A stretch of DNA of 64,000 nucleotides from Desulfatitalea tepidiphila (GTDB taxonomy: Bacteria; Desulfobacterota; Desulfobacteria; Desulfobacterales; Desulfosarcinaceae), in assembly GCF_001293685.1 (NCBI RefSeq), contig NZ_BCAG01000003.1:62001-126000 (forward strand). Reading direction: 5' to 3'. Position 1 is the stretch's first letter, and the number at the start of each line of letters is the position of its first letter. A program made the translations under genes and the position numbers. Below the pieces are notes generated by a model. That model was not told the DNA's origin, searched no databases, and saw only the letters and a program-made list of their open reading frames with translations. Below, in pieces: positions 5,213 to 56,825 of the stretch.

Positions 5213-6436
5213 TCAGCCTTCGAAAACCGTCTTGAGGGGAGCGAGTTGAAGGGTGGCCTGGCGGATCAACGCAGGTATGGCGCAGGCCGAAATTCCGATC
5301 CCATCGAGCACGGAATAGTCGAAACAGGGGATCGTCAGCTCTCCGCTGTTGCCGATACCTGTTCCATGAACCAGGAGATCGGCCAACTGGATAATGCCGG
5401 CCTTGGTTGGATCCGGTGATTTGGACGGCGTATGGTGGTGGACGATGTTGGCCTCCAGCTCGTCCGGCAACCGCCATTTTCTGATCAGATGGCGGCCGAT
5501 CTGTGTATGGTTCAGTCCGAGGATTTCCCTTTCAGCCTGGTAAAGACAGCGATCTGATGATCGAGCCGAATGGATCGCTTCACGGGCATGGTCTGGGTAG
5601 TATTTGAATACGATCAATTTGCCAATGTCGTGCAACAACCCGGACACGAACAACTGTTCCGTATCTTTTATGTTTTTCAGGGCGGCCAGAATACGGGCCA
5701 CGATGCCGCATGCCAGGCTGTGGCGGGTGAAGTCCCGCACATCCAAAAATTCCCGGGGAATATCTTTAAACGCATTCATGACACAGATGCCTAACGCAAT
5801 CCCGGAAATTTGTTTGGTGCCGATGATCGTTACGGCTCTGGATATGCGGTCTATTTTGGATGGGAACCCATAGAACGCGGAATTGACAAGTTTAAGAAGA
5901 ACAGCCGACAAACTGGGGCTTTTGTTGACGACACGGGCCACATCATTCGACGTGGAAAGCTCGTCTGCAATGACATCGTTGAGTTCTTGTACGATAACCG
6001 GCGCTTCCGGCAGTTTTTCATCGATTTTCCGGATGAATCCACCGATATCCTTTGGCCTGCCCGGCATCGCTTGGGCGGGTATTTTCAGATGAATCGGCAT
6101 TGGAGATGGGGTGTAAGCACCCCCTAATCGATAGGCCACGGAGGATTGATAGATTTCTCTGATGATCTTGTGATTGAGGTCCAGATGCTTGAATACGGCG
6201 TCGACGGCTTGTTGCGCCTGTTGTCGCTTTTCCGGGTCCTCAACCGGCAATTCACAGGCTTTGTGTTTTACGGTGCCGACAATGTTGACTTCGTTCACGC
6301 CCCAGATTTTGAGAACACGGATATGTTTTGAGACGATTTTTTGCCCCCTGGACAGCAGTAAGCGGGTGTTGATATCGAGTACATCCTCACTCAATACCAT
6401 GCCCGGTTCCAATTGATCGACTGCGATGTTCGCCAT
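5213..6436 (-). CDS. HDOD-domain signalling protein
   Basis: The 407-residue protein starts with a short N-terminal module (L-E-P-G-M-V-L-S-E-D-V, G-Q-K-I-V-S-K-H-I) of the type found ahead of HD-related output domains. The HDOD domain covers roughly residues 130-340 and includes L-H-D-I-G-K-L. HDOD domains resemble HD phosphohydrolases, but most are thought to be non-catalytic and to bind partners. The stop lies 5 bases before the start of the GAF kinase gene, so the pair is probably one operon in which the kinase and HDOD protein act in one pathway. Its own upstream region (6437-6637) is shared with the divergent hybrid kinase. Confidence 0.88.
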   Translation of the reverse strand: MANIAVDQLEPGMVLSEDVLDINTRLLLSRGQKIVSKHIRVLKIWGVNEVNIVGTVKHKACELPVEDPEKRQQAQQAVDAVFKHLDLNHKIIREIYQSSVAYRLGGAYTPSPMPIHLKIPAQAMPGRPKDIGGFIRKIDEKLPEAPVIVQELNDVIADELSTSNDVARVVNKSPSLSAVLLKLVNSAFYGFPSKIDRISRAVTIIGTKQISGIALGICVMNAFKDIPREFLDVRDFTRHSLACGIVARILAALKNIKDTEQLFVSGLLHDIGKLIVFKYYPDHAREAIHSARSSDRCLYQAEREILGLNHTQIGRHLIRKWRLPDELEANIVHHHTPSKSPDPTKAGIIQLADLLVHGTGIGNSGELTIPCFDYSVLDGIGISACAIPALIRQATLQLAPLKTVFEG

Positions 6437-6637
6437 ATAAGGGCCTGTTTTCGATATAGGGTGGTCCCCATGTCAGTATCCAGGGGAACCGATTCAACTC
6501 CCTGCTATTGTGTCATTATCGGTCCAGTCGAATGAAACTTGAAAAGAAAGATTCATCTGTGGTTTTTTTTGCTATTGTCATGATTAATAAGGATAGGTAG
6601 GGTTGAAAAAGATCAATGCGGAATATGACCGGCGTGA

Positions 6638-9535
6638 ATGATAAACTTATCAGGATCTGGAGTGTTGGCTTCACGTAAAATGGAAAATTCCCGCCCGCTA
6701 TATAATAGTCGCATATTTCAAAGTTTTATCGATTATTTGCGCACGGCTCGTCCCGATCTCAACAGCCTGGAATTTCTTGACTATGCCGGTATCACGCCAG
6801 AAGAGTTGGTGGACACCGCTCATTGGTTCACCCAGGAACAAGCGGATCGATTCTATCAAATCATTGCCGAAAAATCGGGTGACGAGGATATCGCCCGCAA
6901 AGCGGGCCGATTCAGCGCCTCGTCCGCCGGCATGGCCTCGTTTCAACACTATGTGGTCGGGCTCTTGAATACCGAGACCGCCCTGCTCTCCATGGCGAAA
7001 ATATTTCCTCTGTTCACAAAGGGGGCGACCGTCAAAGCGAAAAGGTTGGCTCCCGGCAAAATCGAAATTGTTTCCACGCCCAAAACCGATGTCGATGAAA
7101 AGCCCTATCAGTGTGAAAACCGCATGGGCAGTATCGAGGCCCTGCCCAAGTTGTTCACCAATGACTATGGCCATATCGAACATCCATCCTGTTTTCATAG
7201 GGGCGCGGAGGCGTGCCACTATATTGTCTCATGGGTTGATCCGAAATCGCTCAAGATAAAATTGTGGCGCAACTACGCACTGATCGGCTCGTTGATGTTA
7301 TTGGCACCTTTTTACATCGTTTTGCCGACCGGCTCTTTCTTCTTTCTCGCTACTTTTTTCCTCTGTCTAGATATTGCGTTGGAGGTCGTCTATACCCGTA
7401 CCAAAATCAAAGAGCTTGAAAAAATCGTGGAGCACAGCCGCCAGGCTGCTGAAGAGCGCATCGAGATGGCGCATACCAGTTACAATAACTCTTTGCTGGT
7501 TCAGGAGATCGGGCAAGCCACGGCTGAAATTCTCAATGTCGACGATCTGATGCACAAGCTCGCCGACCTGATGTGCCATCGGCTCGGTTTCGATCGAGGG
7601 CTGATCCTGCTGGCCGATGAAGCGGAGACTCGGTTGTTCTATAAGGCAGGCTATGGATATTCCGAGGAGGAGCAAACCTATCTCGAAAAAACAACGTTTC
7701 ATTTGGACAAACCGGATTCCAAGGGGTTTTTTGTCAGGTCATTTCTGGATAAAAAGAATTTGACGATTTCCGATGCCAGTGAAATGGCGGATTCATTATC
7801 GGCCAAGAGCAAGAATCTGTTGGAGACCTTCGGCGTGCGCTCGCTCTTGTGCATACCGATCATTTACAAAGACAAGGCGCTCGGCATCCTTGCGGTGGAC
7901 AATGTGAATTCTAAAGTGCCGTTGAAAAAGAGCGATGTCAATTTGCTCGAGGGGATTGCTTCGCACATCGCCATCGGTATCAATAACGCGCGATCTTTTC
8001 AGCGTCTGAAGCAGAGCGAAGACCGATACCGGCAAACGCTGGAAAGCATTGAAGAGGGGTATTTCGAAATCGACCTGGACAGACGCCTCTTGTTTGCCAA
8101 CAAAGCGTTCGAGGAGTTTGCCGGTTTGGCTTCGGGGGAATTGGGAACGAATGGGTTCGAACACTTCTTCAGGCCTGGTTCGATCGCCGAATTGGAGCGG
8201 TTGTTAAAACAGATCCTGGATTCCAGGGACCCGGTCCGTTTTGCTCAACTCGATCTGGCCACAGACAAAGGAGAAGTATTGCCTGTAGATATCTCCATCT
8301 CCCTGATCGTCGACCAGAACGGTCAGCCGACCGGCTATCGCGGTTTTCTGCGCGACGCACGGGATCGTTTAAAGCTCGAAATGGAACGAAAGGAACTCGA
8401 GTATAAATTGCAGCGGGCGCAGAAGATGGAATCTATCGGTACTTTGGCTGGCGGCATCGCCCACAATTTCAACAACTGGCTGGGCGGCATCCTGGGCAAT
8501 ATCAGCCTGATCAAAATGGCCGTTCAGGGGCATGGAAAGGTCTTGGAGCGAATTTCAAAAATTGAGCATATCGTGGATAACGCCGCCAAAATGAACCGAC
8601 AACTGCTCAGTTACGCACGAGGGGGCAACTATGAAATCAAACCCACCAACCTGAACGATATGGTTCAAGAGATTTCGGAAACCTTTGCGGCGACCAAAAA
8701 GGATGTCGTTGTCAAACTGTTGCTCGATTCCGACTTGGGTACCGTGGAGGCGGATCGGAGCCAGATCGAGCAGGTATTGTGGAATCTTTATGCGAATGCT
8801 ACCGATGCCATGCCGAACGGTGGCGTATTCACCATTTCGACGGCCAATGCGACCTCAGAAACCATAAAAGGGCGGTTTCATAATATTCCATCAGGCGACT
8901 ATGTGAGGTTGAGCTGCGCGGACACAGGATCCGGCATTTTGACCGAGCACATGGATACTATTTTTGAACCCTTTTTTACTACCAAAAAAAGTAAAGGCAC
9001 CGGCCTTGGTTTGGCCTCGTGCTACGGCATTGTCAAAGCGCACAATGGCTTTATCGATTTCGTGTCTCAAGTGGGCGTCGGCAGCACCTTCACCATCTAT
9101 TTGCCTGCGGTGGATGCAATCCCCGCGGTGAATGGCCGTGTGTCATCTTCGGTCCAAAAGGGGCAAGGTACGATTTTGGTCGTGGATGACGAAGAAATAA
9201 TTTTGGAGTCCAGCATCGCTCTTCTCTCCGGATTGGGATATGTCGCAGTAGGCGCTTCCAGCGGCGAGGAGGTTTTGGATAAATATTCACACGAATTGAA
9301 TGCCTTGGATGCGGTTATCATCGACATGGTGATGCCCGGTATGAGTGGTGGAGAACTTTACGCGCGCTTAAAAAAATTAAAGCCGGATTTAAAAGTTTTG
9401 TTGTGCAGCGGCTACAGCGTGAACGAAAACATCCAGGCGGTCCTGGATCAAGGCTGTCAGGGTTTTCTGCAGAAGCCCTTCAGTTTGGATCAGCTGTCGA
9501 CGGCGATCAGAAGCTGCTTGTTTAAGGACACTTAG
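6638..9535 (+). CDS. Hybrid sensor histidine kinase/response regulator, membrane-anchored
   Basis: This 965-residue protein begins with a roughly 190-residue sensor-like domain ending in an H-P-S-C-F-H-R-G-A-E-A-C-H-Y-I segment. Two close hydrophobic helices follow (about 212-255), then a coiled coil, a GAF domain (about 285-450), a PAS domain (460-590), a kinase core with phosphoacceptor H609 in G-G-I-A-H-N-F-N-N, an ATPase domain with D-T-G-S-G-I and G-T-G-L-G-L, and a C-terminal receiver with D896 in I-I-D-M-V-M-P-G-M-S-G. The first ATG is used; a second is at 6680. The stop TAG at 9533-9535 coincides with the edge of a remnant of the palindromic repeat. Ligand and output partner are unknown. 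Confidence 0.9.
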   Translation: MINLSGSGVLASRKMENSRPLYNSRIFQSFIDYLRTARPDLNSLEFLDYAGITPEELVDTAHWFTQEQADRFYQIIAEKSGDEDIARKAGRFSASSAGMASFQHYVVGLLNTETALLSMAKIFPLFTKGATVKAKRLAPGKIEIVSTPKTDVDEKPYQCENRMGSIEALPKLFTNDYGHIEHPSCFHRGAEACHYIVSWVDPKSLKIKLWRNYALIGSLMLLAPFYIVLPTGSFFFLATFFLCLDIALEVVYTRTKIKELEKIVEHSRQAAEERIEMAHTSYNNSLLVQEIGQATAEILNVDDLMHKLADLMCHRLGFDRGLILLADEAETRLFYKAGYGYSEEEQTYLEKTTFHLDKPDSKGFFVRSFLDKKNLTISDASEMADSLSAKSKNLLETFGVRSLLCIPIIYKDKALGILAVDNVNSKVPLKKSDVNLLEGIASHIAIGINNARSFQRLKQSEDRYRQTLESIEEGYFEIDLDRRLLFANKAFEEFAGLASGELGTNGFEHFFRPGSIAELERLLKQILDSRDPVRFAQLDLATDKGEVLPVDISISLIVDQNGQPTGYRGFLRDARDRLKLEMERKELEYKLQRAQKMESIGTLAGGIAHNFNNWLGGILGNISLIKMAVQGHGKVLERISKIEHIVDNAAKMNRQLLSYARGGNYEIKPTNLNDMVQEISETFAATKKDVVVKLLLDSDLGTVEADRSQIEQVLWNLYANATDAMPNGGVFTISTANATSETIKGRFHNIPSGDYVRLSCADTGSGILTEHMDTIFEPFFTTKKSKGTGLGLASCYGIVKAHNGFIDFVSQVGVGSTFTIYLPAVDAIPAVNGRVSSSVQKGQGTILVVDDEEIILESSIALLSGLGYVAVGASSGEEVLDKYSHELNALDAVIIDMVMPGMSGGELYARLKKLKPDLKVLLCSGYSVNENIQAVLDQGCQGFLQKPFSLDQLSTAIRSCLFKDT

Positions 9536-35681: not shown

Positions 35682-35758
35682 GCGCCCGTAGCTCAGCTGG
35701 ATAGAGCACCGGACTTCGAATCCGTAGGTCGCCCGTTCGAATCGGGCCGGGCGTGCCA
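35682..35758 (+). tRNA. tRNA-Arg (TCG), island attachment site
   Basis: The cloverleaf is complete: acceptor GCGCCCG with CGGGCGT, D arm GCTCAGCTGGATAGAGC, anticodon loop CTTCGAA (anticodon TCG), T arm GCCCGTTCGAATCGGGC and encoded CCA. An integrase gene ends 22 bases beyond its 3' end, so this tRNA is the probable attB/attL site. Confidence 0.95.
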
Positions 35759-35780
35759 TTAATATCAAGGGGTTACGGCT

Positions 35781-36887
35781 TCAGCTGTTTCCCCTTTTTT
35801 TATCCGTGTGTGAATCCGTGTGTGAAAAAGTTTTGAATCCATCATCCAGGATGTCCATTGCATGACGTTCGCCCTCGCCAACGGAGTGTAAATAGATCTC
35901 GGTTGTTGCACGATTTTCGTGGCCAAGAATGCGCTGAATCGATCCGATCGGGACTTTGGCAGAGTCAAGCATCGAAGCGCCATAATGACGTAATGCATGG
36001 TAACGGAAATACTTCACGTCCGCTTTTTCGCAGAGCGTATTCATGATTTTCTTCCGCTCCGCATACGGCCCTTCTATCCAACAGTCATTTTTCCGACTCC
36101 AGTAGCGATGCCAAAAGACCCAAGGTTTTTCCGCATCCCGATTTTCAAACCGCCTGACCAGCACTTCAAAAAGCTTGCCGGTCATCGGAACGCTTCGGGG
36201 TGTTAAATGCCCGCCCTTTTTCTTCCTTGTATAAAGGGTCACACAGCGGGCGTCAAAATTGACGTCTTGCCATGTCAGGCGGTTTACCTCACCCATGCGC
36301 CCCATGGTTAGAGCAATGGTCCAAAGGTAATCCTGGGTGTCCGGATCAGCTGCCAGGATGACCCTGAGCACATCTTTCTTGGGCGGGACATATTTTATCC
36401 GTTTCTCCACTGGGAAAAACTCGATACCACGGGTCGGGTTGAAATCCATCCAGTCCCTCGTCGGATGCATCGCAAAATTGAACACGGCGCGAATGTAGCG
36501 TAGCTCCTTATTTGCCGTGTATCCTGACGTCTGCCTGAATCGTTTTAGCAGGTAGTTCTGGATCATCGTCGGGGTAATTTCACGGCATTTCCGTTTTCCC
36601 CATTCCTTGACCCATCGCTTGGCCAGATAAAGATGGTCAGTGTAATGCCGTTCGGAGTTATACGCCTTCACATAATCCAGACGACTATTGACCAGATCCA
36701 AGAATGCCATGTCGATTGGCGTCTCTGGTGCCTCGATCACTGGCACCGGGTTTTTTAGCTCCTCCTTTTTCAATGTGGCCGCCTTCACGGCGTCCTGTTT
36801 CCGCTTGAACCAGCCCCTTGTGTGCCTGGTCCCGTTCAGGGTGAAGTCGTATCTCCACCCCTTTGCCTTTACCGAATAAACGCTCAT
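35781..36887 (-). CDS. int: Tyrosine recombinase (phage-type integrase)
   Basis: The 368-residue protein begins with a short arm-binding segment (W-R-Y-D-F-T-L-N-G-T-R-H-T-R-G-W-F-K) and a core-binding helical domain. The catalytic domain shows box I T-M-G-R-M-G-E-V-N-R-L-T-W, R-Y-H-A-L-R-H-Y-G-A and I-L-G-H-E-N-R-A-T-T-E-I-Y, giving the Arg-His-Arg-His-Tyr set. It reads toward the tRNA and ends 22 bases from it, the common arrangement for tRNA-targeting integrases. Its AGGAGG ribosome site lies inside the upstream HTH gene. Confidence 0.95.
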   Translation of the reverse strand: MSVYSVKAKGWRYDFTLNGTRHTRGWFKRKQDAVKAATLKKEELKNPVPVIEAPETPIDMAFLDLVNSRLDYVKAYNSERHYTDHLYLAKRWVKEWGKRKCREITPTMIQNYLLKRFRQTSGYTANKELRYIRAVFNFAMHPTRDWMDFNPTRGIEFFPVEKRIKYVPPKKDVLRVILAADPDTQDYLWTIALTMGRMGEVNRLTWQDVNFDARCVTLYTRKKKGGHLTPRSVPMTGKLFEVLVRRFENRDAEKPWVFWHRYWSRKNDCWIEGPYAERKKIMNTLCEKADVKYFRYHALRHYGASMLDSAKVPIGSIQRILGHENRATTEIYLHSVGEGERHAMDILDDGFKTFSHTDSHTDKKRGNS

Positions 36888-39471: not shown

Positions 39472-39636
39472 ATGAGGAAAAAAATCTACACGCGCAATGT
39501 CGGAGTGATGCTCACAGAGCAATGTTATCAGCGGTTGGTCGACATCACCGACAATCTGGAAGTCACGGTTTCTGCGTATATTCGCGACTTGCTTCAAAAA
39601 GAAATCGACCAAAAGGAGGAAAACCTAAATGCATAA
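39472..39636 (+). CDS. Ribbon-helix-helix DNA-binding protein
   Basis: The 54-residue product has the MetJ/Arc pattern: a short strand (N-V-G-V-M-L-T) followed by two helices (E-Q-C-Y-Q-R-L-V-D-I-T-D and V-S-A-Y-I-R-D-L-L-Q-K-E-I). AGGAGG precedes the ATG. Its last codons overlap the start of the next gene by eight bases (ATGCATAA), so the two are translated together. Such a small RHH gene before a partner is typical of antitoxins or of autoregulators in mobile elements. Confidence 0.8.
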   Translation: MRKKIYTRNVGVMLTEQCYQRLVDITDNLEVTVSAYIRDLLQKEIDQKEENLNA

Positions 39637-40615
39637 TTTCAAGAATAAAAATGAAAGCGTTAGAGATCTAATAGACCTCATTACCGAGGCGCAACCCTTA
39701 CACGATCTGCTGGAAAAAAGCGGTATTTCAAAAATCACGGAAGTTAACCCCATAAAAAAGTACCAGCGAAAAGGCGACCGTGAAGGCATCCTATTAAAAG
39801 TTAAGAAAGATAATGACCCTGAGGCAATAAGAGTTCTTATTGATCTCAAAATTGGCGAACCATCTGTTGATCAGGTCATCGATGCCACCTTCGGGATTGG
39901 AAATGACTGTGATAGAAGGATCATATTATATGCACCTGGTACGAACACCAGCGATCTTCAAAACCCTGCAGCAGACGAGCTTGTAGTGTCTTCATTGGTA
40001 CAATGCCTTCAGCGATATCCATTAGGATTCAGTCTCTTCAAAATCGATGAAAAGACACTCACATTTGGTTTGCCAGAGTATCTTGAGCCCATCGATGTAT
40101 CTGATGATGAAAAACTACCATTTGGTCAATTGCCATCCAAAGAGCGCGTTTTAGCCCATACCTTCTGGAACGTTTATTTCAATTCGTTCAATGAAGCGTT
40201 TTATAAGCCCTGGGAAGCATTCGATGACGAGGTTATGGAGACCAGCGACTGGGGTCACACCATCTATATTGATTGCTGCTTTTTCGGAGAAATACAACTC
40301 TATTGGGATAACCAGGGGGTGCGGTATGTGATTAAACAAGAAGACGATAACCATGAATATTTGAAACGAGTCTTAGATCTTAAAATGCCTGAGCTTAAAA
40401 ACCGATACGGTGATGATTCAATGGAATTTGAAAATATGGTTGGAAGATTGCCAAAACTGCATATCAAGTATTCTGATAAACAACTTGACTGGTTGACCAC
40501 AGCATCGCCAGCTGAAAAATCAGAGTTTGCGAAGATAATTTACGATGATGCATGGGAACTTCGATGGTTTATTGAGGAGACCGCTGATCGTTTATTTGAA
40601 GATAAAGTTGCATAA
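39629..40615 (+). CDS. Hypothetical protein, partner of the RHH gene
   Basis: The 328-residue protein is acidic. An N-terminal helical stretch is followed by G-I-L-L-K-V-K-K-D and A-I-R-V-L-I-D-L-K-I-G, which loosely resembles the strands of a restriction-type nuclease fold seen in related unknown proteins, but no clear PD-(D/E)XK set is present. The C-terminal part has N-H-E-Y-L-K-R-V-L-D-L-K-M-P-E-L. I do not recognise the family. The eight-base overlap with the RHH gene is the main clue: the pair could be a toxin-antitoxin-like or regulator-effector unit. Confidence 0.6.
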   Translation: MHNFKNKNESVRDLIDLITEAQPLHDLLEKSGISKITEVNPIKKYQRKGDREGILLKVKKDNDPEAIRVLIDLKIGEPSVDQVIDATFGIGNDCDRRIILYAPGTNTSDLQNPAADELVVSSLVQCLQRYPLGFSLFKIDEKTLTFGLPEYLEPIDVSDDEKLPFGQLPSKERVLAHTFWNVYFNSFNEAFYKPWEAFDDEVMETSDWGHTIYIDCCFFGEIQLYWDNQGVRYVIKQEDDNHEYLKRVLDLKMPELKNRYGDDSMEFENMVGRLPKLHIKYSDKQLDWLTTASPAEKSEFAKIIYDDAWELRWFIEETADRLFEDKVA

Positions 40616-41470: not shown

Positions 41471-43093
41471 ATGGATACCGACACAAGCCTGGAATTTAAG
41501 AAAAAAAACTCTGAAGATGACGATGTAAAAGATATAGTGGAGGATATCGTCAATAGTTCTCAAACCCAATCGGCAGATTCTGTGATCGATGGGGCTCCAG
41601 AAAATTCAGAAGATCCTGTTGTTAATGAGGCGTTTGAACATTTAAAAGCTATTTTTGTCCGTCATTTCCACGATGCAATGATGGAAGCCGGTCGATATAT
41701 CATCGAAAAATTCTACGGAAATGATTATCGAGTCGCGTTTGCCAAAAACAAGACCAAAGACGAACCAGCAAGCCTGAAAGCCCTCATTGACAAAATCAGG
41801 ATGGCGCCGAAAGCAACCGAAAATGGGGTTCCATCCATTGGGTGGTTTTACAATGCGGTTAACTTGGCGGCTCATGAAGAGATTTGCGCCCAGGAAGGAT
41901 TACAAACGTTTGGAATGCTTGGCCACAGCCATAAACTCCAGTTGCTTCATACTCCAAAAATCAAATCAATTCAGCCGGATGAGTTCGATGAGGCCGTTAA
42001 ATCAGCATTTGCAGAAAAAGAGCGGCTCGCCAAACATGCTTACGACAATTCTCTGTCTGTTCGGGAGTTCAAAAATTACATCAAAGAGCAGGATTCCTCA
42101 GATGGTATTGACATCACCTGCTTACCGCCAAAACCAGAATTGCGGAAAATCGAGCCAAAGGAATTGTTAAAACTCTGGAATAAGGCCAGTGCGAAATACG
42201 AAGACGGGCAACGCCAAGCGAAGGTATACAAAGAGGTGTTGGCGTCCCTTGAAATGGTTTTGAATGAAATCGGAAGCAATCCAGCCGCTGGTAAAGGTCG
42301 TTTTCAGGATTGGACTGAATCGAAGAATAATTTCAACATCTGTGTGGGGTGCAAAAACGATTGCGTATATTGTTACATGAAGGACATGAATGTTGGTAGG
42401 CAAAAGAAAAAACAACCTGAGGATTGGAGTAATTGGGAAATTCGCCAACAGAAGGTGGACGCTCCCCAGAACCTTAGAAATGGCCTTGTCGGTTTTCCTT
42501 CATCTCATGACATTTTTCCAGAAATTCTTGATCCCTATTTGTTTGTATTAGGGAAAATGCTCCGTGCCGGGAATGAAGTCCTGGTCGTCACCAAGCCTAA
42601 TTTAGCCTGCATCAGTACTATTTGCGCAGTCAGTCAATTTTTCAAGGACAAAATCATTTTCAGATTTACCATCGGAGCCATGAATGATGCCATTTTGAAA
42701 ATTTGGGAACCAAATGCCCCCAGTTATGAAGAACGCAAGGCATGTTTAGAATGTGCATTCAAACAAGGCTTCCGAACTTCAATTAGCATGGAACCTCCAT
42801 TAGACGTTCCAAATATCCCCAAGTTGATAGAAGATGTTAGGCCGTTTGTTAATAATGATATTTGGCTCGGGACTATGAATCATATCGATTCGATTAGGAA
42901 GTGGGCTGATGAATCGTTTTCAAAGGAAATAGAGAGAATAAAAAACGAACAGTCACCGGAAATACTTCAATCAATTTACGAAAAATATAAGGATGATGCG
43001 TTGATCAAATGGAAAACGGACGCAGTGAAAATTTTTCAGGGTAATCAAAATCAGATAGAGAAAACAAAGCGGACACAAAAAAGAGGCTCGTGA
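41471..43093 (+). CDS. Radical SAM protein with N-terminal domain shared with the downstream gene
   Basis: The 540-residue protein has an acidic N-terminus and then a roughly 130-150-residue domain (about 55-205; R-Y-I-I-E-K-F-Y-G-N-D-Y, G-W-F-Y-N-A-V-N-L-A, S-V-R-E-F-K-N-Y-I). A radical SAM core follows with the 4Fe-4S Cys triad C294-x3-C298-x2-C301 (C-K-N-D-C-V-Y-C-Y). Strand motifs G-F-P-S-S-H-D-I-F-P-E, L-V-V-T-K-P and R-F-T-I-G-A are reminiscent of spore-photoproduct-lyase-like radical SAM enzymes. The N-terminal domain recurs in the next gene, suggesting that the two bind a common target or each other. The substrate is unknown. ACAGGAGAG lies before the ATG. Confidence 0.85.
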   Translation: MDTDTSLEFKKKNSEDDDVKDIVEDIVNSSQTQSADSVIDGAPENSEDPVVNEAFEHLKAIFVRHFHDAMMEAGRYIIEKFYGNDYRVAFAKNKTKDEPASLKALIDKIRMAPKATENGVPSIGWFYNAVNLAAHEEICAQEGLQTFGMLGHSHKLQLLHTPKIKSIQPDEFDEAVKSAFAEKERLAKHAYDNSLSVREFKNYIKEQDSSDGIDITCLPPKPELRKIEPKELLKLWNKASAKYEDGQRQAKVYKEVLASLEMVLNEIGSNPAAGKGRFQDWTESKNNFNICVGCKNDCVYCYMKDMNVGRQKKKQPEDWSNWEIRQQKVDAPQNLRNGLVGFPSSHDIFPEILDPYLFVLGKMLRAGNEVLVVTKPNLACISTICAVSQFFKDKIIFRFTIGAMNDAILKIWEPNAPSYEERKACLECAFKQGFRTSISMEPPLDVPNIPKLIEDVRPFVNNDIWLGTMNHIDSIRKWADESFSKEIERIKNEQSPEILQSIYEKYKDDALIKWKTDAVKIFQGNQNQIEKTKRTQKRGS

Positions 43094-43523
43094 CCACTAT
43101 AAAAGATCAAAGTGATGACAAATAGGTTGTGGGGACGGCGGTGTTATCTTACTATCTGCCTGGCAGAAGTGCTCAGATATGAAAAGACATGCCGTTGTGG
43201 ATTGGCGATCTGCGGATTTTAGGTGCGCTTCTCGGAAGACTCAATTTTTCGTTTTGAAAAAGCAAAAACGGTTTTAAGCAGAACCCGCGAACTTTTAAAG
43301 TGTGTGTATAACACATTCACAAAAGGTTGTATTGATTCACCTCCTGATATTCCTTCCAACTAACAACACTTCTGTCACCGTTTCACCCCACATCAAGGAT
43401 TTTTGAGCATTCATGTTTAAAAAAATTGGTAATGTGCCGAGCAAAATGGGCGATAATCAAAGAGTCCATACTCTTTTTCGCGATTGGGAATCGAATAAAA
43501 CTTTCAACTTCAAAGGAGGCATA
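43094..43523. other. Intergenic region with dispersed repeat copy 2
   Basis: The region holds the longest copy of the island repeat (43171-43270). An upstream in-frame ATG at 43413 would extend the next gene by 37 residues, but the stronger ribosome site lies at the internal start, so this stretch is treated as leader. Confidence 0.55.
43171..43270 (+). repeat. Dispersed island repeat, copy 2 (longest)
   Basis: The segment GCTCAGATATGAAAAGACAT..GCCGTTGTGGAT is shared with copy 3 (49121-49183), and the segment from GATCTGCGGATTT through ATTTTTCGTTTTGAAAA is shared with copy 1. Copies lie between cargo genes and contain no coding potential. Confidence 0.7.
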
Positions 43524-44891
43524 ATGCCCAAAGCCAGTAAAGACATCGAAATTACGACAGGAGAAATCAACGCTAACATTATTCTCATTGCTCCGAATTG
43601 CAAAGGCGCCGATCAAACCACGACGGCCAGATTGACTCGGGCGATTCAGAAGCGACTTGGTTGTCATGCCATTATCAATGAGGCGTTTACTTGTCCCCCA
43701 AAAACCAGCGATGGAAAATTTGGTGATGCTGACATCGAGAAACGGATTGCCGATCTTAATCATATCAATCACGCCAAAAAGCATTCCAAATTCATCTCAA
43801 CAATCAAAAAATGGATTACCGATCCAGCCAATGCCCATGTGTTTTTGATTTACGGAATCGAAGATGAAACATTCTCAGCGGAGTCAAAAAAATGGGGTTA
43901 CAATGATGCAAAATGTCTGGTCGGTTACGGTCAGGGCGCTGGCAACGGTTTATCGATGAACGCCGATAAAGCAAAACAACTCGTTCAACTGATGATCCAA
44001 AATGGGCTCTTAAGTGCAGAGACACACCAGGAATCACCCGATTTCCGTGGCGCCAGTCCCGAAGTGATGAATCAATATTTCAACCTCAATAGCACTAAGT
44101 TCCCTGGTGTGCAGTCTGTTCAACTGGGGTTTGCAAAAGCGGGCGTTAGAGAAAAATGGTTTACAGTACAGACTGGCATCAAGGTGACCAAGGCAATAGC
44201 CGAATTGGTTGGATGTGAAACGGTCGACATCCCAGAGGAAAATGCTGATGAGGATCTCGTCCAGGAAACCACCGCAAAGGTGAAAGAGTTCATAGCCGCC
44301 AATCATAAAAACAGCATCCAAGTCGGCCATTATCTGATTGAAAAATTTTATGGCAACGATTACGAAAAAGCGAAAAAGGGGCAGAAGGTAAAAGGAAAAT
44401 CCCTTAATGCAATGATAGAAGGGCTTGAAAAAATAGGAAATGCCCCATCCAAATCCTGGTTTTACAATGCTGTGAACTTAGCTGTTGACGATAAAGCGTT
44501 TGAAGGCGATGCGGATTATGCCAAATTGAACCTGTCTCATAAAATTTACCTTACCTATCTAAATACAAAGGATGAGTGGGAGACAGCAAAACTTGGACTC
44601 ATAAAAGAAATTGCCAAAAATGGCACGTCAATTCAAGACCTTGGTAAAAAAATAGCGAGTATCAAAGGCAAATCAGAAACGGACTGGCCAGAACCTGATT
44701 TTATCAAAGCGATGGCGGATAAAGAAAAAATGAAATACAAGGACCGTGCCGAAAAACGGAAGATAAAAATCGAAGAGACGATCAAGGCGCTGACACTGGA
44801 ATTAGAGAAATGCGAAAAAATAATCACCGCGGTTGTGGGAACCACAGAACAGACAGAGGAAGTGCTTAAAAAAACCGGCACTGATGGATGA
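43524..44891 (+). CDS. Partner protein of the radical SAM gene, unknown function
   Basis: The ATG at 43524 follows AAAGGAGG and gives 455 residues. The N-terminal 235 residues form a mixed domain (I-I-L-I-A-P-N-C-K-G-A-D, H-V-F-L-I-Y-G-I-E-D-E, F-P-G-V-Q-S-V-Q-L-G-F); the last part faintly recalls zinc amidohydrolases of the N-formylglutamate/poly-gamma-glutamate type, but no metal site is clear. Residues about 250-385 repeat the domain of the upstream radical SAM protein (H-Y-L-I-E-K-F-Y-G-N-D-Y, S-W-F-Y-N-A-V-N-L-A, L-S-H-K-I-Y-L, T-S-I-Q-D-L-G-K-K-I), and a coiled coil ends the protein. The shared domain and adjacency argue for a two-gene system. Confidence 0.75.
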   Translation: MPKASKDIEITTGEINANIILIAPNCKGADQTTTARLTRAIQKRLGCHAIINEAFTCPPKTSDGKFGDADIEKRIADLNHINHAKKHSKFISTIKKWITDPANAHVFLIYGIEDETFSAESKKWGYNDAKCLVGYGQGAGNGLSMNADKAKQLVQLMIQNGLLSAETHQESPDFRGASPEVMNQYFNLNSTKFPGVQSVQLGFAKAGVREKWFTVQTGIKVTKAIAELVGCETVDIPEENADEDLVQETTAKVKEFIAANHKNSIQVGHYLIEKFYGNDYEKAKKGQKVKGKSLNAMIEGLEKIGNAPSKSWFYNAVNLAVDDKAFEGDADYAKLNLSHKIYLTYLNTKDEWETAKLGLIKEIAKNGTSIQDLGKKIASIKGKSETDWPEPDFIKAMADKEKMKYKDRAEKRKIKIEETIKALTLELEKCEKIITAVVGTTEQTEEVLKKTGTDG

Positions 44892-45286: not shown

Positions 45287-47488
45287 CTAATTCCTTGACA
45301 TCATCATTTCATAATGAGCAGAATGTTCAGACTTCTCAAAAATTCGCTTAAAGACATTTAGATAAGTCTCGACTAACATGCCGTCTATTGATAGGTAAAT
45401 ATCGTCAAGGGCGTAATGGGAACCGTCGTTAACCCATGAAAATAGAGATTTACAGATCAATTTTTCCTTCCCTTCAAACATTCCACAAATTTTGTCGGGA
45501 TCAACACCGCCTAAGATCTTGAAATAGTTTTCGAGAATTCTCCTGAGGGTGTTCTGTATTGTGAGGTTCGAGCGATCTGGGTTTCTAACCTCAGCCCAAA
45601 GCAATTCGTAAGAAGTCCTAATTGGGTTCGATTTGTGTTGCTCTATCTTGGATATCGAGCCCGATTTTCGAACGACCCAGAATGTCTCTTCCTTCATAAC
45701 TGCGCAGGTTCTCTTAGGATTGAAAGTGACTTCTCTGTGAAAGTAAACATTATGAGTCAGAACGAAAACCTGCTTAACATGAGTTCTTCCTGACCGAACC
45801 TCATTAAGCAAGTTTTTGATCAAACTGCTTACGATAAAAAGAATGTCGCTGTCGAGACTAGAAACAGGGTCATCAATGACAACAACGCGGTCTGTAGTCA
45901 TTCCACTCTCTGAATCACTCCCTCTCATCAGGTGATAAAAGTAGAGGAAAGTTACAAAGTTTTTTTCTCCTTCGCTCAAAGTCTCCTTTGCATCGGAACC
46001 ATCAGATCGAAACAACTTATAACACGTCCCGCTATCGGCCTTAGCAAGCGAAAAACTTTGGAAACCAAATGAAGCCAGAAGGGTGTTAATACCATCTATG
46101 GTTGGCTGAATACTTGTCGTTTGTCGCTCGAGTTCTCTAATCTCGGTTGCCTTATTCCTCGCTTCATTGGTTGCCAATAAAATTTGTTGATTCATCGCTT
46201 CGATAGCTTTGTTTAAGGCGTCATGTTTTACTTTGTAGGATTCCAAGTCCGCCTTCAGTTCTGCTTCGAGCAGATACTTCCATACTTGTGCACTTAAGAT
46301 CCTACGTTCTTGGGCAAGGTTTGAAACCATCTTGTTGTGCCTGCTAACCTGAACGTTAGCTGCTTCTATCATCTCTTTTGTTTTTGATACAATATCATTG
46401 ATGGATTCTAACTCCGTTACCTGACTCGGCTCTTTTTTCTTTGACAATAGGCGTTGCATATTGACCATGATTGTAGAATCGAGGAGTCCCTTTACTGCCT
46501 TAAGTTTTTCAATGTCAAGGAATCTGCTTGGATTAGCAATAATAGATGAAATCTGTTGCTGAAGTCGTTCGGAGGCTGTCTTATAGTCGGTGACGAGATC
46601 TTCAATGGCTTTACTGTCCGTTTCAAATGCTTCATCAAAATATTCGTTCAAGCTATTCGAAAACGCATCGGTCGTGGCCTGTTGGCAGAACGGGCACACC
46701 CTTTGATTTGTTTCATAAAATTTACGACCTTCCCTAACCCAGTCACTGTTCCTCAACTTCTTTATCATTTCAGCTATATCAACGTCATCCTTCCCAATCA
46801 CGCGTTTCTTGAGTATCGGAGCTTTCTCATAGGAGAGGACAACATCAATCGTTAAATCAGGGACGAATCTCTCCGATGTCGGAGTGGAGCCGAAGACCGT
46901 TTCTGCCTTTTTTTCCAAAGCAGCCAAAGTCTCCACTGATGCAGAATTAGATATCCACTCTTTGAGAACCTTTCCCTTGAATTTTTCAGCATTGTTTCGA
47001 AAACCTTCGAATGCACCTTGCAACTTTGCGTCATGTTTTTGTTTTTGAGACCAGCACTTGTTTTTTAACCCTAATTCGAGAGCTGCCAGTTCACCTATTT
47101 TACCGCCCGTCCCACCCTCACCGTGCAAACCTAACCTAAGGCTTTCGATTTTTTTCGTGATCGTATCGAGCTCAATTTTTGTAGCGGCGATCTTATTGAT
47201 TACATCTATGTTTTTTTCGCCAAGCGTGAAAACGCCCCTTAGCTCCGCACACTGGTTAAAGTTCGTCTCCACAAAATCTCGATTATAGACCAACGGCTGG
47301 AGCTTAGTGCCCCCCTGCCAAGTGATCTTGCAACTCGGATAGTTGGCTTCATTTGCAATTACCCTGCTAATAGTCGTTTTACCAGTTGCATTTGCCCCGT
47401 AAACGAAGTTGAACATAGAAAGGTCACAAAGGCTTTCAGGCGTGTTTGCGAAGGTTGCGGTGCCTGCAATCTGAACTGATTCGATCAT
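45287..47488 (-). CDS. RloC/PrrC-like AAA ATPase with zinc-hook motif, putative anticodon nuclease
   Basis: Started at 47488 (GAGGG upstream), the protein has 733 residues. Walker A is G31-A-N-A-T-G-K-T38, the ABC signature L-S-E-G-E-K at 504-509, Walker B V-V-V-I-D-D-P-V-S-S-L-D at 535-546, and the switch His is in L-T-H-N. The long central coiled coil carries C265-P-F-C268, as in the zinc hook of RloC. The C-terminal part has R624-T-S-Y-E628 and H691, resembling the Arg-x3-Glu...His triad of PrrC/RloC anticodon nucleases, though the His spacing is longer than in PrrC. If so, it would cut tRNA on DNA damage or phage attack. Neighbouring genes are also defence-like. Confidence 0.75.
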   Translation of the reverse strand: MIESVQIAGTATFANTPESLCDLSMFNFVYGANATGKTTISRVIANEANYPSCKITWQGGTKLQPLVYNRDFVETNFNQCAELRGVFTLGEKNIDVINKIAATKIELDTITKKIESLRLGLHGEGGTGGKIGELAALELGLKNKCWSQKQKHDAKLQGAFEGFRNNAEKFKGKVLKEWISNSASVETLAALEKKAETVFGSTPTSERFVPDLTIDVVLSYEKAPILKKRVIGKDDVDIAEMIKKLRNSDWVREGRKFYETNQRVCPFCQQATTDAFSNSLNEYFDEAFETDSKAIEDLVTDYKTASERLQQQISSIIANPSRFLDIEKLKAVKGLLDSTIMVNMQRLLSKKKEPSQVTELESINDIVSKTKEMIEAANVQVSRHNKMVSNLAQERRILSAQVWKYLLEAELKADLESYKVKHDALNKAIEAMNQQILLATNEARNKATEIRELERQTTSIQPTIDGINTLLASFGFQSFSLAKADSGTCYKLFRSDGSDAKETLSEGEKNFVTFLYFYHLMRGSDSESGMTTDRVVVIDDPVSSLDSDILFIVSSLIKNLLNEVRSGRTHVKQVFVLTHNVYFHREVTFNPKRTCAVMKEETFWVVRKSGSISKIEQHKSNPIRTSYELLWAEVRNPDRSNLTIQNTLRRILENYFKILGGVDPDKICGMFEGKEKLICKSLFSWVNDGSHYALDDIYLSIDGMLVETYLNVFKRIFEKSEHSAHYEMMMSRN

Positions 47489-47591
47489 GTAACCCTCTTT
47501 TCGCGAAGGCTCTACATAACCGGCTGGCAATGGGGCGCAGGGGAATTGCCACTCCGAGTTAATGCGTTGGTGATGTGAAATTTATCGAAAA

Positions 47592-51801: not shown

Positions 51802-54486
51802 TTATGCGTCCTTATATTCCCTGAAACCATCGAGCAGATGTTGAAATGATTTCGGTTTATACTTTTCAAAGCTTTCCTGGTCCACAAATACGAAATCATA
51901 AACAACGTCAGATTGAACTCTATTGATATCTTCGCACCACTGTTTGAGTCTTGACATTTTTTGAGGGACATCCAGGTCCTCTTGGCCTTTGGTCTCAGCT
52001 ATAACTACGCGATGATCGGCCAGTTTAACAAAAAAATCCGGGTAATAATTGGATATATCCCCATCCGCATTGACATAATCGAGTTTAAAATGCACAGCAA
52101 AATAGTTTTTGGCATGAGAAACCACATCAGGGCAATTTTCAAGAAAACTTGCAAAGTCCAATTCGAGATGACCATCACCAATTAATCTATTAAAAACGGA
52201 TTTTTTTGGCATAAGATAACCCTGATCTTTAACCACAAAGGGGCGTGTGTGCCTAAGCTTGATCGTATCCCTTATTTCTGCGTCTCCTTTATCCCTAACC
52301 GTTAACTCGTTGATAGATCTTTTGAATGTTTCTATTATCGCTTTAGTAGCTGGCAACTCTGATAAATTGCGCAAAGTATTAGGGTCTTCCAAATCCACTT
52401 TTGCAGCAAATAAATTATCTCGAACAAATGCTTTTATTTTTCCATATAGAACATCGTAACCGCTAAAAAGATGCAATTCTTTCATGATAGTTTGTGCAAA
52501 ATAGCCAATAACGCTGCGATAATCCCCTTTACCAGCGCCATCAAGCATTGTGGTGTGTACGATTTTTTTTGTTGTTATATCTTTGAAGACGATTTCCCGC
52601 TGCTCTTCCTGAGTAAATTTTAGATACCGGACGGGTTGAAAATCGAATTTGTCGAGGTCCAAATCTGTTAGATTTTTGTATTCCCGATAATTACGGGGCG
52701 AAAGAACAGGTATCTCAATATCCAGGGCTTTGATATCCTTGTTTTGATTGTTTTCATCTACTTCTATCATAAGAGGCGTTTTCGGTTTTGTGCCTTCTCC
52801 CATCGCCTTTCGTTCCAATTCGACACCTTCCGCTTGAATGGACTCGACAAAGTCCATAAAAGCATCAGTGCCGATTACGCTGACATACTCTTCCAGTCCT
52901 CCTGGATACATTTTTCGTAATCCGCGACCGAGTGTCTGTTCCGGCAAAATGTTGCTTTTTGCTGAATAGGCGCGCAGACCAACAATGGTTGTGACATTTT
53001 TGACATCCCATCCTTCTTTGAGCATCAAGACCGAGACAATTGCCTTATAGGGGCTATCCATCTCGTCAATTTTATTTGCCTGTTCACGGAGTCTTTCCAA
53101 GTCCTCCTTTGCCTTACCAGTAGCTGCCTCTGAAATTTCACCGTTATTCTTAGTGTGGATCACCAGCACTGCCCCTTTAAGCTCGGGGTAACGTCCCTGC
53201 AAATATTCGTCAACATCATCACAATTGCGTGTATCATCAGTCATTACGAATAAGATGGCTTTTTTTCCAAGTTTTTCGTGCTCAACATATGCCTTTCGCC
53301 ACTCTATAACCCCAAGGTCGATATAATCTGCATATTTTTCAGTGTATTTTACGCTCTGATTCTCATGGAGTTTTGCTCTGCTCGGCGCATCGGGTAACAC
53401 GGGATGTTTGACAACATTCTGCCAGATAGCTTCGACCAGAGGATAATCGGCAATCGTTTGTACAAAAATTGAGCCATTATTATGTTTTGGGGTGGCAGTT
53501 ACATCCACCTGCAAAGCAAGTGCACTTCCTTTTTGGAGTAGACGATTATGAATGTCTTCGATTGATTTGAACCAGGCGAGTTTTTTATCATGAACATGAT
53601 GAGCCTCATCGTTGACAACCATCAATTCATCGATATCTCGTACGATCATTCCCAGATCGACTTTGGAATCTGTGGTAGCGCCCGTTGGTCTTTTGCCGAG
53701 AAAATAATCCATCATATTCTCATCATCGGGGCTGGGAGGAATATCATCCCCAGAGTATACCCGGTGAATATTGGTCAAAAAGATGTTTCCTGTTGGACGG
53801 GTAACGCGAACCTCATCTTGCTTGTGTAGGGTAAGTTGAAAATCATCGCGCCAGTTGCGGCCACCAAAACCATTTTCCGGCAACACCGGGTCTTCAAAAA
53901 AGATGCGTAGTCCCTGAAAATCATGATAAATGCGATCCAACACAATAATATTAGGGGCGATAACCAGGAAGTTGCGTGACAACGTTGATTCTGGTTCATA
54001 AAGTCGGTTAAAAAAGCTCCAGGTGATTACAAGACTCATGACTTTGGTTTTGCCGCTTCCCGTGGCCATTTTGATCACAAATCGTTTCCAACTTTCATCA
54101 AACATTCCTCCCGAAACTGAATTGGAACTATCAAAGCGCATTAAATCAAACTTATCCTGAACGCCTACTACATCATACAGATAGACAATGGTTTCCAATG
54201 CCTCACGCTGGGCAAAATAATATTGGAATTCGGACATCATACCGTCCGATTTCTCCAACAAATGCGGAGTATCAAACCACCAACTGAGCAAGCTCCGAGT
54301 TGTGTCTGTCGCTCCCACATAACCACTCTCTCGGAACTCTTTAACCTTTTTGCGAAGCTGCGCTACCAACGGTGGTATGAGCTTATCCATTGTCGTTTCG
54401 CGCATTGATTCATCAGCCGGGAACCAACGAATATCAGGATCGAGAATGGCATGAGGGGAAGTTGGAAAATCTGGATGCAGGCCCAT
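51802..54486 (-). CDS. Type III restriction endonuclease Res subunit
   Basis: The 894-residue protein has SF2 helicase motifs: A-T-G-S-G-K-T at 141-147, V-N-D-E-A-H-H near 295, T-A-T-P-K, and later A-L-G-R-G-L-R-like E-Q-T-L-G-R-G-L-R. A C-terminal PD-(D/E)XK nuclease site reads Y-P-D-F-F-V-K followed by V-V-I-A-E-T-K-G. Res needs Mod, translocates on DNA using ATP and cuts at a distance from head-to-head sites. Its ATG overlaps the Mod stop by one base (TAATG), so the two are translationally coupled. Confidence 0.94.
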   Translation of the reverse strand: MGLHPDFPTSPHAILDPDIRWFPADESMRETTMDKLIPPLVAQLRKKVKEFRESGYVGATDTTRSLLSWWFDTPHLLEKSDGMMSEFQYYFAQREALETIVYLYDVVGVQDKFDLMRFDSSNSVSGGMFDESWKRFVIKMATGSGKTKVMSLVITWSFFNRLYEPESTLSRNFLVIAPNIIVLDRIYHDFQGLRIFFEDPVLPENGFGGRNWRDDFQLTLHKQDEVRVTRPTGNIFLTNIHRVYSGDDIPPSPDDENMMDYFLGKRPTGATTDSKVDLGMIVRDIDELMVVNDEAHHVHDKKLAWFKSIEDIHNRLLQKGSALALQVDVTATPKHNNGSIFVQTIADYPLVEAIWQNVVKHPVLPDAPSRAKLHENQSVKYTEKYADYIDLGVIEWRKAYVEHEKLGKKAILFVMTDDTRNCDDVDEYLQGRYPELKGAVLVIHTKNNGEISEAATGKAKEDLERLREQANKIDEMDSPYKAIVSVLMLKEGWDVKNVTTIVGLRAYSAKSNILPEQTLGRGLRKMYPGGLEEYVSVIGTDAFMDFVESIQAEGVELERKAMGEGTKPKTPLMIEVDENNQNKDIKALDIEIPVLSPRNYREYKNLTDLDLDKFDFQPVRYLKFTQEEQREIVFKDITTKKIVHTTMLDGAGKGDYRSVIGYFAQTIMKELHLFSGYDVLYGKIKAFVRDNLFAAKVDLEDPNTLRNLSELPATKAIIETFKRSINELTVRDKGDAEIRDTIKLRHTRPFVVKDQGYLMPKKSVFNRLIGDGHLELDFASFLENCPDVVSHAKNYFAVHFKLDYVNADGDISNYYPDFFVKLADHRVVIAETKGQEDLDVPQKMSRLKQWCEDINRVQSDVVYDFVFVDQESFEKYKPKSFQHLLDGFREYKDA

Positions 54487-56825
54487 TATTTTTTGCCTCC
54501 TACGCTGACCTCAACGATCGTCATCGTATCATTGCCAAAGATGTCGACCACCTTTACGGCAATTTTGCGTCGTCCTGGAGGACATTCCCGAGCGACGCTA
54601 ATCAGCTCTAAAGATCGATCCTTCTTGGTCCGGAAGCTTTGCCACTCATTTTCAAAGATGTATTCACCGGTCCATACCTCTTCATAATCAGCAAATGAAA
54701 GCTGCACCGGTTCTGTTGTTCCATCGATTTTTGTCTGAACGCCTTTACTTCGGTTAATTCGGATGATTTCACGTTTGCTCTCAAAATTAAAATCCACCGC
54801 CCAATAATCGATCCAATCGGTCCATTTTTGGGTCAAAACCTCACGAGTGACTATTCCTTTGGCGTCCTTGTTGACCTTTACGATTTGCCCCTTTTCCACA
54901 ACTATTTTGCTGCCCTTGTTTTTTAAGGTCTCCTCGGCATGTTTTATTGAATCCTGAGAATAAAAAACGGAAAAGTCAGTCAACTTCACAGCTACCGTTG
55001 CAGGTTTTCCTTTCTTACCATCCTTTACAATGGGTTTAACTTCAATGGCCGCGACGTCATGGAAAACCACTTGATTTTTATCTACCGCGCGCTTGTCGAA
55101 GACTTCAGCAGGTATGATTTTGGGTGCAATGTCAATCCCCTTGCTACGTGCTTCATCCAAGACATTCGGGAATAATCCCATTTCGAACTCGAACCCGAGG
55201 ATATCCACTTTGGTGATGTGTTTTTTTCTGCACTCAAGGATAATCTCTTCAACAAAAAGGCGAGAAACCGGTAAGTTGACTGGGCCGATTGCCACGAGTC
55301 TTCCTGCACGTTTACCATGAAAACAGGCAAAGTTGTCGACCTTTTCCGCTCGATATGCCCTCAAGATTAACTCAACAAATGCAGCTTCTTTTTCAGCGAT
55401 TTTTTGTTGACGTTGTTCTTCGCGGAGATTCGGATTTACGCCTATATAATGTTGTCGCTCATATTTTCCCAAATTGAGGATTGCAAATGCACGATAATTT
55501 TTACCTTCACCCTTTAATTTGCGTTGGACATCAATCATGCGCTTTCGGGTCGTATGAATTGCGAACTTGCCCAAATCGCTAACTATCCATTTGCGACCCA
55601 GCTTTTCTGCAACTGCTGCTGTTGTGCCTGAACCGCAGAAGAAATCCGCTACAAGGTCACCCGGATTAGACGATGTTTTAACCATCCGTTCTACAAATTC
55701 TTCGGGTTTTTGGGTTGGATACTTTGTGTCTTCCAGTGCTTGTGAGTTGATTGGGCGAATGTCATCCCATAAACTTTGGGCGGGCTTACCCTCGCTTTCA
55801 TCCAAATACTGTTTTCGCTGTATGCGTTGATCCTTGTTATCTGGGAAATATAGTTTCCCAGCCGCGTCCCACTCCTTCATCGTTTCCAATTTGAACGACC
55901 ATCCATTTGCTGGTGGTTTATAACCCTTGTATTCGTAAATTAGAGAAGGACTATAAGACGGACTCGTTATGGCATGAAGACGATAACGTCTACCGTTCTG
56001 ATCAGTGTAAACGAACTTGGATTTTACGTAAGGATCTTCCTCAGAATATGGAATATATGGTTGGTTGAATATGTATTTTTCTCGGGACTTTGCATAAAAA
56101 TAAATTGTATCCGTTGATGAACCAAATTTTCTACTTTGATTTAGGATGCCAGTTCTCCGCTTCCAAACGATTTCATTTATTAATGAACTAACCCCGAACA
56201 CCTCATCAAGGCATAATTTAATAAATGCCGAAACGCGGTAATCACAATGCACATAAATACTTCCATCTTCAGCAAGCAAATCTCTCATAAGAGCCAACCG
56301 TTCATAGATCATCGCGATAAAAGAATCAGCTCCTCTACCCCAAGTGTCTCGATAAGCAATTTCTTCGAGGATAGTAGGTTTCTTGGTAAAAGTGTCTCCT
56401 CCAATCTGAATATCCATTGAAAAATCGGCCCCCACATCAAACGGTGGATCGATGTAAATTAACTTTAAACCGCCCTGTTTTTCTATTTCTTCCCTCATTG
56501 GACCGTTTTTGAGGGAAGACAAAATCAGTTTATTGTCACCCCATATAAGTTTGTTGGTCCATCCTTTAAGTTGTCGTCCTCGTTCATCGAATAAACCCAT
56601 TTGCAAAACAGCATCTGCTGGCTTTTCGGCTCTTGGTTCGTCCACCTGTTCAATGGTTTGAAAAGGTAGCACAATATTGCAAACCTCGTTGGTCTTGCCA
56701 TTCCAAACCAATTCAACCTCGCGCTTCTCAGCAAAGAGCAGAAATCGATATTTTTCCGGCAGTGGTTTGTCTGCTTCAATGAATCGGATAATTTCTTGTT
56801 GTTCCTGTTCAGTCAAACGTGGCAT
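54486..56825 (-). CDS. Type III DNA methyltransferase (Mod subunit)
   Basis: The 779-residue protein has motif IV D-P-P-F at 126-129 and motif I D-F-F-C-G-S-G-T-T at 394-402, the order of beta-class amino-methyltransferases used in type III systems. The target-recognition domain lies between, around 200-370, with the T-Q-K-P-E-E-F segment before motif I. Mod modifies adenine in an asymmetric site and provides specificity for Res. The C-terminal 350 residues are longer than in the smallest Mod proteins. It is the first gene of the mod-res pair. Confidence 0.94.
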   Translation of the reverse strand: MPRLTEQEQQEIIRFIEADKPLPEKYRFLLFAEKREVELVWNGKTNEVCNIVLPFQTIEQVDEPRAEKPADAVLQMGLFDERGRQLKGWTNKLIWGDNKLILSSLKNGPMREEIEKQGGLKLIYIDPPFDVGADFSMDIQIGGDTFTKKPTILEEIAYRDTWGRGADSFIAMIYERLALMRDLLAEDGSIYVHCDYRVSAFIKLCLDEVFGVSSLINEIVWKRRTGILNQSRKFGSSTDTIYFYAKSREKYIFNQPYIPYSEEDPYVKSKFVYTDQNGRRYRLHAITSPSYSPSLIYEYKGYKPPANGWSFKLETMKEWDAAGKLYFPDNKDQRIQRKQYLDESEGKPAQSLWDDIRPINSQALEDTKYPTQKPEEFVERMVKTSSNPGDLVADFFCGSGTTAAVAEKLGRKWIVSDLGKFAIHTTRKRMIDVQRKLKGEGKNYRAFAILNLGKYERQHYIGVNPNLREEQRQQKIAEKEAAFVELILRAYRAEKVDNFACFHGKRAGRLVAIGPVNLPVSRLFVEEIILECRKKHITKVDILGFEFEMGLFPNVLDEARSKGIDIAPKIIPAEVFDKRAVDKNQVVFHDVAAIEVKPIVKDGKKGKPATVAVKLTDFSVFYSQDSIKHAEETLKNKGSKIVVEKGQIVKVNKDAKGIVTREVLTQKWTDWIDYWAVDFNFESKREIIRINRSKGVQTKIDGTTEPVQLSFADYEEVWTGEYIFENEWQSFRTKKDRSLELISVARECPPGRRKIAVKVVDIFGNDTMTIVEVSVGGKK

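Follow-up and report, generated by a model that had tools for sequence, protein, structure and literature searches.

Radical SAM, shared-domain and hydrolase-like modules shuffled among the relatives of two genes in an integrated element of Desulfatitalea tepidiphila

The window analyzed here is a stretch of 64,000 nucleotides from Desulfatitalea tepidiphila (contig NZ_BCAG01000003.1) that contains, on its forward strand and within an integrated element, two genes, A (41471-43093) and B (43524-44891), which a preliminary description had proposed to be a two-gene system built around a shared domain. Judged from sequence, the real unit is a kit of three modules – an N-terminal domain (NTD) found in B, the shared domain (SD) found in both proteins, and the radical S-adenosylmethionine (radical SAM, rSAM) domain of A – that have been shuffled and sometimes fused among relatives, and the family that they make up is real and unusual, a variant of the rSAM proteins of unknown function that viruses and mobile elements carry (mobile-pair-B-like, or phrog_13321). 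The explanation that we favor, to which we give somewhat less than an even chance, is that A performs radical chemistry on DNA and that B is its sister docking, regulatory or structural partner. A would be a mobile-element rSAM enzyme brought to its substrate by an SD that possibly binds DNA through a ParB-like helix-turn-helix (HTH), modifying or de-modifying a DNA base at sites chosen by the SD, and this base chemistry would benefit the element or serve in its dealings with restriction. B, carrying the same docking domain, would probably have a docking, regulatory or structural role, because the presumed active site of its zinc-hydrolase-like domain is gone. Radical chemistry on DNA seems the likeliest activity since among the partners and neighbors of these modules are functions in DNA methylation, restriction and element replication, as well as ParB-like ones; DNA binding, DNA as the substrate, the direction of the chemistry and any interaction between A and B are all what we infer.

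Gene A is an intact open reading frame (ORF) of 540 amino acids that joins an SD to an rSAM domain, with an AGGAG seven bases upstream of its ATG. By sequence the protein belongs to the radical SAM superfamily: its rSAM domain (residues 272-531; 42284-43063) scores 450 bits with our own profile and contains an intact CxxxCxxC cluster motif, CKNDCVYC from residue 294 (42350-42373), confirming the C294, C298 and C301 assignment made previously, and the motif is present in 24 of 26 aligned rSAM rows, A among them. The match of A to PF04055 (E 1.2e-4, 22.7 bits) is below the Pfam cut-off of 29.5 bits, which is exceeded by its relatives at L113 and L073 (L numbers denote loci, and G numbers genomes). 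The best PHROGs match is phrog_13321, of unknown function (E 2.1e-12 over residues 283-507), and there are weak matches of the rSAM to spore photoproduct lyase (SPL), DUF5131 and TIGR04470. PADLOC models give no match to A or B up to E 0.1, phmmer comparison of the two with the PDB gives nothing for one query and three chance-level matches for the other, PDB profile searches yield only weak matches, and tblastn searches of plasmids and phages with A, and of plasmids with B, gave no useful result.

The best match of the rSAM alignment to the sequence of a solved structure is with SPL itself (E 0.02), which, together with the rSAM fold and weak matches to PF20903 and TIGR04070, would suit a DNA repair enzyme: the SD would dock on DNA and the rSAM domain would undo a lesion, for example a thymine dimer. 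The SPL-type matches, however, lie far below the curated family cut-offs and several span only the cluster-motif region, and the fusion of an rSAM domain to a DNA methylase and DUF1848 at L113 suits modification better than repair; we therefore regard SPL-like repair as improbable.

The domain that A would use for docking on DNA is clearly present in B, as had been claimed: BLASTP aligns residues 38-264 of A with residues 270-464 of B (71 bits, E 2e-17), and phmmer, searching the window and locus ORFs with the domain of A, recovers B at 7e-14. A and B thus share a homologous domain. The region of homology is longer than the roughly 130 residues first proposed, and with its helical part included our own SD profile extends over residues 44-269 of A (41600-42277; 268 bits) and, with the helical tail of B, residues 275-480 of that protein (44235-44852; 221 bits), of which about 100-115 residues form the conserved core. 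Pfam scans of 23 single SD members most commonly return HTH_ParB (PF17762; 9 of 23, best 6e-4), followed by DUF1016_N (5 of 23, best 7e-5) and DUF3102 (two), all of these matches being weak; the SD of A itself has no Pfam match, and neither A nor B matches the ParB N-terminal domain. One SD-family ORF (L058, 6035-6619) is above the HTH_ParB cut-off, at 27.3 bits in a PF17762 genome search. The SD is perhaps ParB-HTH-like, with a helical region beside that core, and DNA binding by it is plausible. Membership of DUF3102 was considered and rejected, given that only two of the 23 SDs match it, weakly, and that PF11300 matches in none of 148 genomes. At L058 the SD gene seems to be broken into overlapping frames, 5781-6038 and 6035-6619, and an intact SD gene is present at 7570-8430.

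The frame of gene B is open from 43413, which would give 492 amino acids, but an AGGAGG lies four bases upstream of the ATG at 43524, a nearby site that the ATG at 43413 lacks; the start is therefore probably at 43524, so that B has 455 amino acids (NTD, SD and helical tail) and is separated from A by 430 bp. The NTD (about 235 residues; 43527-44225) is, as reported earlier, unassigned, with no match in Pfam, NCBIfam, PADLOC or PHROGs. A profile of 17 NTDs, from which B of the window and two fragments were left out, aligns by hhalign with a profile of seven PF05908 members over 152 columns (Prob 95.3, E 2.1e-8), and with seven control profiles at Prob 2.2 or less. The Pfam PF05908 model matches only two of 20 NTD members (best E 0.067). 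We infer that the NTD is a distant relative, homologous at the superfamily level, of the zinc poly-gamma-glutamate hydrolases. Assignment to the N-formylglutamate amidohydrolases (PF05013) was rejected, as hhalign gives Prob 0.5 (with three sequences only) vs 95.3 for PF05908. A search of phage records with the NTD of L060 gave no match.

According to work on PghP and PghL (PF05908, MEROPS M86), the zinc ligands of PghL are His41, Glu46 and His102, and mutating their equivalents in PghP, or that of Glu165, harms activity (PMC6506827). The NTD columns aligned with these four residues are H, D, H and E, with Asp in place of Glu as the second ligand; the first three are retained in all 19 other NTDs, and the final Glu in 17 of the 18 that are aligned there. 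In B of the window the four presumed active-site residues are N, Q, Y and G, and all of them have thus been replaced. In the nearest relative of B, the broken gene L050 of Desulfosarcina widdelii, the piece still open encodes the second His and the Glu, which suggests a recent loss in B. That B is nonetheless an unbroken ORF suggests that it retains a non-catalytic role. A and B do have different partner domains attached to a common one, but the idea that these are two different effectors fits B poorly, as its proposed effector lacks the residues presumed to be needed. Two further differences from PghP and PghL are that many NTD members are fused to the docking domain and that B has none of the four residues.

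Our own NTD, SD and rSAM profiles, run on every ORF in the loci used that reaches 60 amino acids, show the modules in a variety of combinations. All three are joined as NTD-SD-rSAM in a single protein at five loci, with lengths of 676-821 amino acids at L048, L053, L106 and L107, and of 683 amino acids at L070, where the gene ends at a contig edge. These five single-gene fusions support a functional linkage of the modules. The SD-rSAM arrangement of A is shared by L047 (Desulfosarcina widdelii), L108 and L006, the last of these a 1349-residue protein of the same D. tepidiphila genome (contig C3; L006 6421-10470) in which SD and rSAM are combined with DUF1848 and an MgsA_C-like region. The NTD-SD arrangement is found in B and at L049, L054, L055, L075, L109, L111 and L120, and stand-alone versions of NTD, SD and rSAM also exist. 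Other joined partners include DUF1848, with an SD at L123 and, by Pfam, with a DNA methylase and an rSAM in one protein at L113 (6573-9683); the proteins of L112, L114 and the contig-cut L119 are probably of this last type, judging from their length, the position of the rSAM and a common upstream gene. An NTD is joined to ParB at L061. A ParB-like region and a DUF5131 (mobile-pair-A) rSAM domain form one protein at L160 (6493-7875) and probably at L161 (3062-4450), where the ParB-like part was judged by eye, and this TIGR04471/DUF5131 arrangement mirrors SD-rSAM. The fusions to a docking domain, a hydrolase-like domain, a DNA methylase and DUF1848 hint at work on DNA, and those that are single proteins are compact enzymes suited to being tested directly by nucleoside mass. 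In the literature searched we found no title or abstract describing this module architecture, and no mention, supplements aside, of DUF1848, DUF5131 or 'radical SAM mobile pair'.

Many radical SAM enzymes modify peptides, and it could be that the substrate is a protein which the rSAM domain modifies and in which a peptidase-like NTD cuts an amide bond. Of the two hydrolase families compared it is PF05908 that the NTD matches, not PF05013, and the studied PF05908 members are gamma-glutamyl peptide hydrolases (PMC6506827). Some of the fusions, however, are to DNA-methylating or ParB-like domains, and beside A and B we noticed no gene for a precursor peptide, although no systematic search was made; we give this protein-modification scheme little credence. 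A still more doubtful scheme makes the NTD-SD-rSAM proteins DNA-bound writers or erasers of a base bearing an amino acid or peptide, the rSAM contributing carbon chemistry and the NTD cutting or trimming the amide; in the window A would be the writer and B, its hydrolase dead, would dock or protect. If true, this would represent a novel type of system, borne by an element, for modifying DNA or countering restriction.

Both virus contigs and mobile elements repeatedly contain the rSAM core, and its best PHROGs and NCBIfam matches name no function. Using the rSAM-only alignment A8 we find at least 104 relatives in IMG/VR, of which we used the best 80, the last ten or so being weak. These phrog_13321-like virus copies are mostly stand-alone proteins of about 260 amino acids and, unlike A, lack an SD with one weak exception among the 80 loci, so that the rSAM can work without one. 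Viral scans with alignments A1 and A2, which include the shared domain, gave no relative, but since A8 found at least 104 this reflects a limit of their few patterns. A ParB profile matches in 14 of the 80 virus rSAM loci and a DUF1848 profile in none. Clustering of 70 virus loci places 60 in the main rSAM cluster, and among these 60, in counts made without a control, 12 have a gene of the ParB-like clusters 2 and 9, and 20 have a gene of clusters 1, 4, 7 or 13, whose identity as methylases was judged by eye. The stand-alone rSAM of L007 matches only the Acidianus two-tailed viruses among phage records (25%) and nothing among plasmids. Archaea have the rSAM too, in three records (Sigyn-, Bathy- and Heimdallarchaeota), in a protein without NTD or SD.

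Among the closest named families is TIGR04470, rSAM mobile pair protein B, which the isolated rSAM of L007 matches over residues 17-237 (E 6.8e-8). A is not a member of TIGR04470, as both A (18.5 bits) and L007 (32.2 bits) are well short of its 410-bit cut-off, and SD and NTD fall outside the matched stretch. As inferred from its name, the family should have a DUF5131-type pair-A neighbor, and A has none; the pair-A model matches none of the 10 window proteins to which it was applied, and the two genes of the same genome that exceed the DUF5131 cut-off (C3:1058119 and C3:1076169) are about 950 kb away from A.

Phylogenies of the separate modules suggest that A and B have different histories. 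The SD of A groups with those of L006, L047 and the fused L053 and L070 (99/98), and its rSAM with L047 and L053 (99/99); because these groups include fused proteins, the lineage of A has probably lost an NTD. B falls in a separate NTD-SD lineage: its closest partners in the trees are L049 and L050 for the NTD (100/100) and L049 for the SD (90/89). A and B therefore look like two lineages that have been brought together. That they are the halves of a split fusion protein was considered and rejected, since the trees place them in different lineages and both carry an SD.

Mapping of the separate genes, which had been suggested as a check, shows that they rarely occur together. A is matched in 15 and B in 13 of 97 genomes (the D. 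tepidiphila genome included), many of these through single modules, and among the loci read it is only in the window that separate A-type and B-type genes are adjacent. Five of the seven other genomes with a B-type gene (G067, G110, G164, G241 and G317) lack an rSAM match in a count based on a single rSAM query of 24 chosen genomes, some of them incomplete; in the remaining two (G028 and G063) rSAM matches are present at other places. No NTD or further SD gene is present in the 14 kb read at L047, the closest relative of A. What survives of the proposed two-gene system is thus the linkage seen in the five fusions, and not a conserved adjacent pair. In a wider survey 69 of 389 genomes were matched, a lower bound because at most three candidates were scored per genome on an even draw, and phylum-wide 74 of 395 genomes, mostly by weak matches to the rSAM part.

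These patterns invite the explanation that the NTD-SD proteins, B among them, serve mobile elements in ParB-like partition or regulation, with A a separate paralogue that has the docking domain in common with them, and no joint system. The five genomes without an rSAM match, the NTD-ParB fusion at L061, the separate lineages of A and B and the absence of the presumed active site from the NTD of B all agree with this. The five proteins that join all three modules do not, however, and the conservation of H, D and H in all 19 other NTDs points to catalysis and not mere regulation; on balance we think the ParB-like explanation rather unlikely.

The setting, on an integrated element, speaks for radical chemistry on DNA by A with B as a sister partner, and so do neighboring restriction genes. 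HsdR-type genes are present at 5 of 13 NTD-SD or NTD-SD-rSAM loci (L075 and L110, of equal length and with the same genes, are apparently one contig and were counted once), vs 1 of 40 control regions (Fisher p 0.002; 16 kb each, at hand-chosen round-number positions in eight genomes with family members) and 1 of 35 other family loci (Fisher p 0.004), with a profile built from the test loci themselves, several of which are short contigs. The construction of that profile nevertheless weighs against our preferred explanation, as does the clustering of restriction genes in mobile islands anyway, and further points have the same effect. Joint transcription of A and B cannot be assumed across the 430 bp between them, and the scarcity of rSAM matches in B-type genomes counts here as well. 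The rSAM is about equally weakly similar to several families (SPL, DUF5131 and pair B). The likeness of SD to ParB is weak by hhalign (Prob 8, the nine other profiles giving at most 0.4), with a ParB profile in which 7 of 24 rows are pieces of less than 200 amino acids, perhaps in wrong frames. Finally, an SD match is found in only one of the 80 virus rSAM loci, weakly and beside a distant rSAM. As to the possibility, raised earlier against its significance, that the SD is a common phage HTH-type module, it does weakly resemble a ParB-type HTH, but it is rarely seen in the virus loci that carry the rSAM.

The element on which the A-B pair is located measures about 35.5 kb and is integrated in a tRNA-Arg gene. 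A 47-bp stretch at the 3′ end of this gene (35714-35760, forward strand) is perfectly repeated beyond the end of the window, at the equivalent of 71180-71226 (L009), the two copies being 35,466 bp apart, and the first adjoins a tyrosine integrase gene (35784-36887, reverse strand; PF00589 E 8.9e-21). In 2-kb steps the G+C content of the element is 0.36-0.51, the preceding flank having 0.54-0.57 and the following one 0.51-0.58. Rfam identifies nothing between 35500 and 64000 except two tRNAs. The description of this region as defence-rich is borne out by the genes that follow the pair, all in the reverse orientation where placed: an AAA_13 ATPase that is PADLOC candidate defence PDC-S06 (45287-47530), and a restriction protein (ResIII and TnsA-like) with an N6_N4 DNA methylase (51802-56825), in addition to an HSDR_N-like protein. 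SSB, a PD-(D/E)XK protein and UvrD are also part of the cargo, and the element also carries a DUF1848 gene (L009 361-1386), shortly beyond the last position of the window. Upstream of A is a gene for a 328-residue protein (39629-40615, forward strand) for which no family was found; its homologues (cluster c11) are at L008 and L108, both of which carry rSAM genes.

Element-type genes are found near some of the 35 other family loci, and are compared here with the same 40 controls. A D5-type helicase is present at three (L007, L008 and L108) vs one control, a PolA-like gene at two (L047 and L115) vs none, and a TGT-like cluster at three (L006, L047 and L059) vs none, the L059 member having no Pfam match of its own. 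L007 (5664-6458) and L008 (5231-6025) are near-identical stand-alone rSAM genes of the D. tepidiphila genome, each beside its D5-type helicase gene, and the TGT-like gene of L006 (PF01702 E 5.6e-16) is about 4.3 kb from the fusion gene. The fusions at L112, L113, L114 and L119 are each preceded by a gene for a 520-555-residue protein (cluster c6), the L113 copy of which has no Pfam or NCBIfam match. DUF1848 is present in 126 of 147 class-level genomes; most have a single gene for it, about 300 codons long, whose consensus has a CxxxCxxCYA-like motif near the C-terminus.

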